A DNA stretch of 64,000 bases. Origin: Solimonas terrae (GTDB taxonomy: Bacteria > Pseudomonadota > Gammaproteobacteria > Nevskiales > Nevskiaceae). The position numbers and the translations under genes are program-made. The DNA lies in NCBI RefSeq assembly GCF_011067135.1, contig NZ_JAAMOW010000002.1:434001-498000 (forward strand), in the 5' to 3' direction. Numbering within the stretch: the stretch's first letter is position 1; every line of letters starts with the position of its first letter. This document shows positions 1 through 30,989 of this stretch, piece after piece. Under the pieces are notes generated by a model. The model had not been told where the DNA came from. It worked only from the letters and a program-made list of their open reading frames with translations, and ran no database searches.

Positions 1-63
1 GAATTCATAGGTCCAAAGCGCAGCAAAATTCGCCCCGATGCGCCTGAACAACTATTGCTTATC

Positions 64-99
64 TAAAAAGAATGCCCGCAAGTCAGAGACTTGCGGGCA
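64..99 (-). terminator. Rho-independent terminator-like hairpin at the left edge of the CRISPR array
   Basis: A perfect 11-bp inverted repeat (arms TGCCCGCAAGT and ACTTGCGGGCA, 73-83 and 89-99) encloses a 5-nt loop. Read on the minus strand, the stem is followed by TTCTTTTTAG, as in an intrinsic terminator. It ends five bases before the first repeat, so it would stop a transcript that had crossed the array from right to left. On the plus strand no T-tract follows the stem. Confidence 0.7.
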
Positions 100-103
100 A
101 CCA

Positions 104-2217
104 GACCGTATCAGGCTTTCCGATGGTGGGGTATCGGAACCAATTATCACCGCGCGGTGTCCACGCGTGGGACCGTATCAGGCTTTCCGATGGTGGGGTA
201 TCGGAACAATAAATATAAGAGATATTTGTTTTCAATCGACCGTATCAGGCTTTCCGATGGTGGGGTATCGGAACATCGTCTTTATTCACCCCGACATAGA
301 GCGCGACCGTATCAGGCTTTCCGATGGTGGGGTATCGGAACAAGACGCCCGCGAATCCGCAAGGCATCAAGGACCGTATCAGGCTTTCCGATGGTGGGGT
401 ATCGGAACGTAATTGGTGCGGGGGCGTCGGCATATTCGGACCGTATCAGGCTTTCCGATGGTGGGGTATCGGAACAACATCCGAGACGTATGCGTGGTCC
501 CGCAGGACCGTATCAGGCTTTCCGATGGTGGGGTATCGGAACGACAGCGTACAGTTCTAGCTGATCGTCATAGACCGTATCAGGCTTTCCGATGGTGGGG
601 TATCGGAACAACGTGACGGCCGACACGACGGCCACGCCGGACCGTATCAGGCTTTCCGATGGTGGGGTATCGGAACCAAGTACATCGCGTCCATCCAGCC
701 GAGCGGGACCGTATCAGGCTTTCCGATGGTGGGGTATCGGAACGAATGGCACTGGATCATTCCAGACTGTGTTGACCGTATCAGGCTTTCCGATGGTGGG
801 GTATCGGAACAGCTTGCGCGGCGGCCGAACGGCTGCGCGAGACCGTATCAGGCTTTCCGATGGTGGGGTATCGGAACGCGCTGTCCATCACGGCCGACAA
901 CCTCAAAGACCGTATCAGGCTTTCCGATGGTGGGGTATCGGAACGGCACACCTGTGCGGTAGTTTTCGCGCGACGACCGTATCAGGCTTTCCGATGGTGG
1001 GGTATCGGAACACCCATGCCAAACGCTATATTGTCTGCACTGACCGTATCAGGCTTTCCGATGGTGGGGTATCGGAACTGTCGCGTCGCAGGACGAACTG
1101 ATCGAGGCGACCGTATCAGGCTTTCCGATGGTGGGGTATCGGAACTGGTCGAGCTCGATGGCCGTGCGTGCGAGGGACCGTATCAGGCTTTCCGATGGTG
1201 GGGTATCGGAACGAACATGATGTCGGCGAAGATGCGGGCATTGACCGTATCAGGCTTTCCGATGGTGGGGTATCGGAACTCATCAAGCGCATTGCCCGGG
1301 ATGGCGGTCGACCGTATCAGGCTTTCCGATGGTGGGGTATCGGAACGACTGGCGAAGCGGCCTTTTCCGAGATCCTGACCGTATCAGGCTTTCCGATGGT
1401 GGGGTATCGGAACATCGTCGTCAGGCGCGTCAGGCCCAGCCCCGACCGTATCAGGCTTTCCGATGGTGGGGTATCGGAACTGTTGGGTTGATTGCGCCTC
1501 ATGGCGTGACGACCGTATCAGGCTTTCCGATGGTGGGGTATCGGAACGGAAATGCCGCCGACAAAGGTGCTCGTGCAGACCGTATCAGGCTTTCCGATGG
1601 TGGGGTATCGGAACAAGATCGGCAGCCGCCAGCACCTGAAACGAGACCGTATCAGGCTTTCCGATGGTGGGGTATCGGAACAGCGGCAGTGGAAGCGTTG
1701 GCACGGGCGCGGACCGTATCAGGCTTTCCGATGGTGGGGTATCGGAACTGCGTCTACGATCTGTCCTGCGGGTCAGATGACCGTATCAGGCTTTCCGATG
1801 GTGGGGTATCGGAACAGACACGTTGCCGGCTTGCACGAACTCGATGACCGTATCAGGCTTTCCGATGGTGGGGTATCGGAACTCACCGTGCTCGAGGCCT
1901 TCGCCGCGGCCGGACCGTATCAGGCTTTCCGATGGTGGGGTATCGGAACCATGATCTGTGCCTGCCACGCCAGCGAGCGGACCGTATCAGGCTTTCCGAT
2001 GGTGGGGTATCGGAACTGGCATCGGCTGCAGCGAGCAGCTGCTGAGGACCGTATCAGGCTTTCCGATGGTGGGGTATCGGAACTGCGTCATTGCCGGGGT
2101 CCTGCCCAGCACTGACCGTATCAGGCTTTCCGATGGTGGGGTATCGGAACGATGAGTAGTGTGGGTGCGCAGTATGTTGAGACCGTATCAGGCTTTCCGA
2201 TGGTGGGGTATCGGAAC
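104..2217. CRISPR. CRISPR array, 32 repeats of 37 nt and 31 spacers of 30 nt; type II-C-like by architecture
   Basis: Thirty-two copies of a 37-nt repeat start every 67 bases (104, 171, 238 ... 2181). The repeat begins GACCGTATCAGGC and ends GGGGTATCGGAAC. I saw no mismatch in any copy, including both terminal ones. All 31 spacers are 30 nt and different from one another. The repeat holds an inverted repeat, TTCCGAT / ATCGGAA around an 8-nt loop. A 36-37 nt repeat with invariant 30-nt spacers is typical of type II arrays. The reverse complement starts GTTCCGATACC and ends TGATACGGTC, which loosely resembles the extended -10 carried by Neisseria II-C repeats. With the terminator at 64-99 this favours minus-strand transcription. 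No cas gene or tracrRNA anti-repeat was found in the window; they would lie left of position 1. Subtype and direction are inferred. Confidence 0.97.
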
Positions 2218-30800: not shown

Positions 30801-30876
30801 GGGTCGTTAGCTCAGTCGGTAGAGCAGTTGGCTTTTAACCAATTGGTCGATGGTTCGAATCCATCACGACCCACCA
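30801..30876 (+). tRNA. tRNA-Lys (anticodon UUU)
   Basis: A complete 76-nt cloverleaf. The acceptor stem GGGTCGT pairs with ACGACCC and CCA is encoded. The D arm is AGCTCAGTCGGTAGAGC, the anticodon loop is CTTTTAA (anticodon TTT) and the T arm contains GGTTCGAATCC. A TATCAT -10-like box lies about 35 bp upstream. The next tRNA begins 34 bp downstream, so they are probably co-transcribed. Confidence 0.97.
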
Positions 30877-30910
30877 TTCCCGCCTTCGACTCCACACGCA
30901 TGTCTCCCGT

Positions 30911-30989
<79 letters not shown>

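Follow-up and report, generated by a model that had tools for sequence, protein, structure and literature searches.

The CRISPR array at the left edge of the window (the whole stretch of DNA analysed, 64,000 nucleotides) would, judging from its gene neighbourhood and its comparison with relatives, almost certainly be the spacer bank of a type II-C CRISPR-Cas9 system that is complete; the host would be a gammaproteobacterium of the Solimonas type. The system is of a known kind (II-C), and its Cas9 belongs to a branch that is neither solved nor described within the searches made. Extension to the left of the window revealed cas9, cas1, and cas2, contiguous with the array as the initial annotation had predicted (Table 1). 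The order of the elements, read rightward, is tracrRNA (minus strand), cas9, cas1, cas2, a terminator-like hairpin, and the array (minus strand), with intergenic gaps of 7 bases between cas9 and cas1, 34 bases between cas1 and cas2, and 37 bases between cas2 and the array. The earlier statement that no cas genes were in view was barely true inside the window: because the window edge cuts the locus, only the last 66 bases of cas2 fall within it, and cas1, cas9, and the tracrRNA gene are located within 4.7 kb leftward.

Table 1. Features of the type II-C locus. Plain positions refer to the window; L009 is the 20 kb leftward segment of the 4.4 Mb genome (window position = L009 position minus 19800).
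Feature	Position	Strand	Basis or description
tracrRNA	L009 15182-15278	-	anti-repeat pairing, covariation
cas9, 1101 aa	L009 15305-18610	+	TIGR01865, Pfam, PADLOC
cas1, 293 aa	L009 18618-19499	+	TIGR03639, PADLOC
cas2, 110 aa	L009 19534-19866; 3' end = 1..66	+	model match, PADLOC
Short cas2-array segment, presumed leader/acquisition end	67..103	.	alike in three loci; presumed from II-C polarity as published in PMC12080349
Terminator-like hairpin between array and cas2	73..99	-	12 pairs, TTCTTTTT tail; scan and relatives
CRISPR array	104..2217	-	32 x 37-nt repeat, 31 x 30-nt spacers; crRNA-sense repeat GTTCCGATACCCCACCATCGGAAAGCCTGATACGGTC
Extended -10-like motif TGATACGGT inside repeat	105..113 (repeat 1; same in 32/32)	-	putative promoter
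Distal 'extra' repeat (presumed oldest), unmutated in the query	2181..2217	-	array reading and comparison of relatives

Cas9 of the query matched TIGR01865 with 339 bits (cut-off 100), Cas1 matched the type II model TIGR03639 with 222 bits (cut-off 120), and Cas2 matched its model with 29.6 bits (cut-off 24.5). The Pfam domains RuvC_III, Cas9_a, and HNH_4 were found in Cas9, and the top PADLOC matches were Cas9, Cas1_II, and Cas2_II. One cas9 and one cas1 gene were detected genome-wide. Spacer length (30 nt) and repeat length (36-37 nt) had led the initial annotation to type II-C; the contiguity of cas9-cas1-cas2 with the array, together with the TIGR01865 and TIGR03639 matches, supported this call. 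No csn2 (II-A) or cas4 (II-B) was found within the cas9-cas1-cas2-array operon, and the genes adjacent to the array are cas2, cas1, and cas9, rather than the class 1 or Cas12 locus that had been named as contrary evidence. The expected catalytic residues are present at positions 8, 540, 619, 643, 805, and 808 of Cas9, their roles being assigned from known Cas9 motifs. Nine pairwise comparisons among the query, Solimonas aquatica DSM 25927 (NZ_FOFS01000017.1; L021/L028), and the Nevskia MAG HOG36 (JADGHB010000019.1; L022/L027) gave pN/pS values of 0.29-0.34 (cas9), 0.18-0.29 (cas1), and 0.06-0.16 (cas2); with synonymous sites almost saturated, the values show constraint and not its exact size. 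An assignment to type II-D (Cas9d) or to another type II system outside II-C is highly improbable. A match of residues 526-836 to the NCBIfam Cas9d model (104 bits) and the motif CPYC in the HNH region speak for it, whereas the Cas9d cut-off of 375 bits was not reached, the TIGR01865 score exceeds its own cut-off, and no further gene lies among cas9, cas1, cas2, and the array.

Within type II-C, the query Cas9 is only distantly similar to solved Cas9s. Its best solved match reached 97 bits (phmmer), and a profile of five relatives reached 173 bits at best; the best solved entries are probably Cas9s from Neisseria and Geobacillus. Their top-scoring stretches reach no further than about residue 850, only the better stretch per entry being listed; the C-terminal part has no listed sequence match to a solved Cas9, and the PAM may therefore be new. 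The identity to the query Cas9 was 66-67% for S. aquatica (66% in tblastn), 65-67% for the Nevskia MAG (65% in tblastn), and, in tblastn, 47% for Thiobacillus, 46% for Muproteobacteria, 44% for Methylococcaceae, and 41% for the genome G280. The same gene order was found in the two relatives of about 66% identity, with a HigB/HigA-like pair in addition, and in three relatives of 41-46% identity. An alignment-based scan recovered five related loci, S. aquatica and Nevskia among them; the first contig scan returned none. Of 369 genomes sampled across the class, 23, counting the query, gave a match at E <= 1e-20, and G280, G154, and G336 belong to the query Cas9 lineage by score.

The tree of 19 Cas9s comprised seven clade members and 12 other untyped Cas9s; the broken or cut sequences of G154, G336, and G033, several weaker matches of the class sample, and named reference Cas9s were left out. 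The query and six relatives formed one clade with a support of 100/100, and the query was 24-27% identical to the 12 other Cas9s in the tree. The HNH region carries CPYC in all six clade members read, which are the seven minus G280, and CxYS in all eight motifs read from other Cas9s. The Cas9 from S. aquatica, modelled by AlphaFold2 with five alignment rows, gave a poor model (mean pLDDT 51.2, pTM 0.27). The initial annotation had suggested an uncharacterised Cas9 lineage. This stands insofar as the solved relatives are distant and limited literature searches, with Cas9 ortholog surveys and supplementary tables outside their scope, found neither a solved structure nor a description of the branch; the support holds only within these searches. 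The analysis adds a well-delimited Cas9 clade with seven full-length proteobacterial members of about 1100 aa and a ready crRNA and tracrRNA design.

The array proved to be exactly as first described. The repeat GACCGTATCAGGCTTTCCGATGGTGGGGTATCGGAAC occurs 32 times with a length of 37 nt, the first copy starting at 104 and the last ending at 2217; all copies are identical (32/32), and the 31 spacers are each 30 nt long with no two alike. The constant 67-base step of the array was also found by an independent scan. The uniformity, which the initial annotation had noted because end copies usually decay, is real but nothing exceptional, and the distal repeat is unmutated in the Nevskia MAG too. 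A survey of more than 650 II-C systems, in which spacers are acquired at the last repeat and each repeat contains a promoter, gives changes in 60% of the 'extra' (oldest) repeats versus 5% of the others (PMC12080349); an unmutated end is therefore less common yet ordinary. Changes are seen in the distal repeat of S. aquatica and of G280 and, in the Methylococcaceae MAG, in the final repeat ahead of the contig end. The eight repeats of the Nevskia MAG are uniform, 37 nt long, and separated by 30-nt spacers, as in the query, and the S. aquatica repeat differs by one base, with the same tracrRNA and gene order. The repeat length is 36 nt, with steps mostly of 66 bases, in the more distant loci L029, L031, and L074, and 37 nt with a step of 67 in the Solimonas/Nevskia group; by this comparison, the 37-nt repeat is a one-base extension of the 36-nt repeat. 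The repeat is predicted to fold on itself through an internal 7-bp palindrome (-9.6 kcal/mol). An array-like region to the left of the window (L010 2710-2909) was classed by eye as a coding-type repeat with varying copies and not as CRISPR. At gathering thresholds, Rfam detected nothing over the window beyond two tRNA genes (30801-30984).

The anti-repeat to GTTCCGATACC predicted in the initial annotation was located in the tracrRNA directly upstream of cas9. In the repeat/anti-repeat duplex, 36 of the 37 repeat bases are paired, with an energy of -64.9 kcal/mol, compared with a mean of -18.8 (sd 3.4, lowest -31.2) kcal/mol for 500 anti-repeat shuffles. The anti-repeat is followed by a short hairpin (nexus) and then by a terminator-like hairpin. 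Ten other loci also have the element ahead of cas9 or of what remains of it, and a diverged form is present in a twelfth locus (G336), which was not included in the 11-locus tracrRNA alignment (A3). Eight of the 27 predicted pairs showed pair-keeping changes on both sides across the 11 loci, all of them in the nexus and the terminator, and one nexus pair was broken in 4 of the 11 sequences. The core of the anti-repeat varies too little to covary. The terminator of the query tracrRNA did not register in the scan for terminators, which found 0 sites where 0.3 were expected. As a side observation, a GATAC that lies behind the nexus and hardly varies is predicted to pair with the 5' end of the tracrRNA itself (A3 columns 10-14 and 80-84), and in this folding model tracrRNA may stay closed on itself until it is bound by crRNA.

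From the tracrRNA pairing and the tracrRNA strand it follows that the crRNA sense is the minus strand and that the array is read towards cas2. Transcription in this direction would run into the hairpin between the array and cas2. The terminator scan of positions 1-2400 found 3 sites versus 1.6 +/- 1.2 in shuffles, which is weak by the scan alone; a similar hairpin segment in S. aquatica and the Nevskia MAG is better evidence. By analogy with the polarity given for II-C systems in PMC12080349, the cas2-proximal end would be the young end of the array, and the repeat at 2181-2217 would be the oldest.

Under the II-C paradigm, the repeat preceding each spacer would contain, in its 3' end, a small promoter at which the crRNA starts; the crRNA would pair with tracrRNA, after which RNase III and Cas9 would mature it. 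Cas9 would then cut matching DNA beside a PAM, and Cas1-Cas2 would insert spacers at the cas2-proximal end. The type II-C systems of Campylobacter jejuni and Neisseria meningitidis resemble the query in having cas9-cas1-cas2 only and 30-nt spacers. The query differs from them in its 37-nt repeat with the internal 7-bp palindrome and in its tracrRNA, which is directly upstream of cas9 and divergent from it, a layout not known from these two systems. For II-C systems, a promoter per repeat and acquisition at the last-transcribed repeat are given in PMC12080349; both would apply to the query by analogy.

In crRNA sense, the repeats end in TGATANNNT. This sequence was present in every readable copy at seven of the nine lineage loci with readable repeats, the other two being G280 (15/16) and G033 (1/2), and its middle triplet occurs in six different versions across the lineage loci. 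It has the form of an extended -10 element. For II-C arrays, PMC10309648 likewise describes promoters lying within every repeat. The sigma-70 scan of positions 1-2400 found 1 site versus 1.2 +/- 1.0 in shuffles, none tied to the repeats, and the repeat promoter is therefore one that we infer. The absence of a repeat-tied site agrees with the possibility that the array is transcribed not per repeat, but as one precursor from a promoter to the right of 2217; minus-strand transcription fits both readings. A single precursor is nevertheless unlikely, as repeats across the lineage retain TGATANNNT at their 3' end despite the varying middle bases, and the flank to the right of the last repeat is unlike (by eye) among the query, S. 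aquatica, and the Nevskia MAG.

The sequence that would act as a promoter in each repeat also recurs near cas9. In 8 of 12 loci, TGATANNNT is retained on the strand complementary to the anti-repeat; it is not retained in the query (TGATACGGC), in the decayed loci of G154 and G033, or in G336, whose cas9 is truncated where the contig ends. In five loci (S. aquatica, Nevskia, Muproteobacteria, Methylococcaceae, and G280), repeat and anti-repeat are not the same over these last bases, yet both retain the final T. The cas9 start or its remnant lies within 60 bases of the anti-repeat motif in 10 of 11 loci, and at about 360 bases in G280. These findings weakly suggest that a repeat-type promoter may also serve cas9; the query is an exception and the loci share ancestry, and little weight is therefore placed on this reading.

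The spacer search against phages and plasmids proposed in the initial annotation returned only chance-level matches. The whole array in blastn gave 26 phage records and 20 plasmid records, the best E value being 0.6 in both cases. In its own genome, only the tracrRNA fell below E 0.05 outside the array. Among the 58 family genomes, eight, the query being one of them, gave a match at E <= 1e-3, and these matches were arrays, tracrRNA genes or their remnants, and one 26-nt match, which overlaps spacer 11 by 20 nt (E 8e-4) and is not a full protospacer; the search scored the best five first-look candidates per genome, and spacer matches could therefore be missed. In IMG/VR, 20-mers of 7 of the 31 spacers gave zero matches, as did the repeat/anti-repeat core. 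Thus, no convincing protospacer or PAM was found in the phage, plasmid, own-genome, 58 family-genome, and partial IMG/VR searches. CreR-like self-targeting of the cas9/tracrRNA region was considered and rejected, since the longest spacer match was 9 nt, compared with a mean of 9.0 in 200 shuffles.

The result of the target search would fit an orphan array or a relic lacking a working effector, as would the decayed copies of the locus in the relatives G006, G016, G033, and G154. The orphan part of this explanation is already refuted, and as a whole it is very unlikely: cas9, cas1, and cas2 of the query are open, adjacent, and constrained, with the expected catalytic residues in Cas9, and all repeats are identical. 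Of the relatives with decayed copies, G006 belongs to the same genus (L052 9390-10962, G006:C8) and G016 to the same family (L053 6820-7860, G016:C1). Both remnants contain the tracrRNA, the end of cas1, and the opening codons of cas9 (for G006 as seen by eye), with different break points; G006 also retains a frame-broken cas2, a terminator-like hairpin, and one degenerate repeat. G033 (L025 5921-6698, G033:C104) preserves an N-terminal remnant of cas9, two repeats, and tracrRNA, and G154 (L075 5542-9253, G154:C8) has a cas9 broken in frame, one repeat, and tracrRNA.

The HigB/HigA-like pair of S. aquatica (L021 10145-10842) and the Nevskia MAG (L022 9755-10449) lies between cas1 and cas2. HigB of S. 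aquatica matched PF09907 with 105 bits; the second gene was taken as HigA from its position, and the Pfam domain HTH_3 was found in one of the four copies tested. In the query, only 34 bases separate cas1 from cas2 and the pair is not at that place; no HigB match was found in the loci of the three relatives of 41-46% identity that carry cas1 and cas2. Both genes are full-length in the remnants of G006 and G016, where most of cas9 and cas1 is gone, and comparison of these two remnants gave pN/pS values of 0.16 for HigB and 0.17 for HigA. Relatives of HigB were found in 19 of the 58 family genomes. Two lie at other sites of the query genome, with identities of 72% (over residues 33-100) and 38%. 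Counting the S. aquatica HigB itself, its four closest copies are all located in this II-C locus or in its remnants. Outliving the cas genes would be the behaviour expected of an addiction module, and the pair may once have guarded them. The relatives show the locus at several stages of decay with the toxin-antitoxin pair persisting, so that a guarding role of such pairs at CRISPR loci could be put to the test. CreTA, described in PMC12737573 as nested toxin-antitoxin RNA pairs guarding cas loci, is likewise a module nested in a cas locus. CreTA is RNA-based and silenced by Cascade, whereas the pair of the relatives is protein-coding, and the query is without it at that place.

A broader reading, tentative and on balance doubtful, would combine these observations. 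The anti-repeat would be two-faced, its other strand being a copy of the repeat whose extended -10-like promoter drives cas9; a promoter of the same kind would start each crRNA, tying together the output of crRNA, tracrRNA, and cas9. In addition, a HigBA-type addiction module would have entered the adaptation operon in a sub-clade; this module would have outlived the cas genes on at least two occasions and may formerly have guarded them. Another Cas9, 25% identical to that of the query and with a repeat array nearby, was observed in G006 (L023, G006:C1:652001-672000); the same genome carries its decayed copy of the locus on a different contig.
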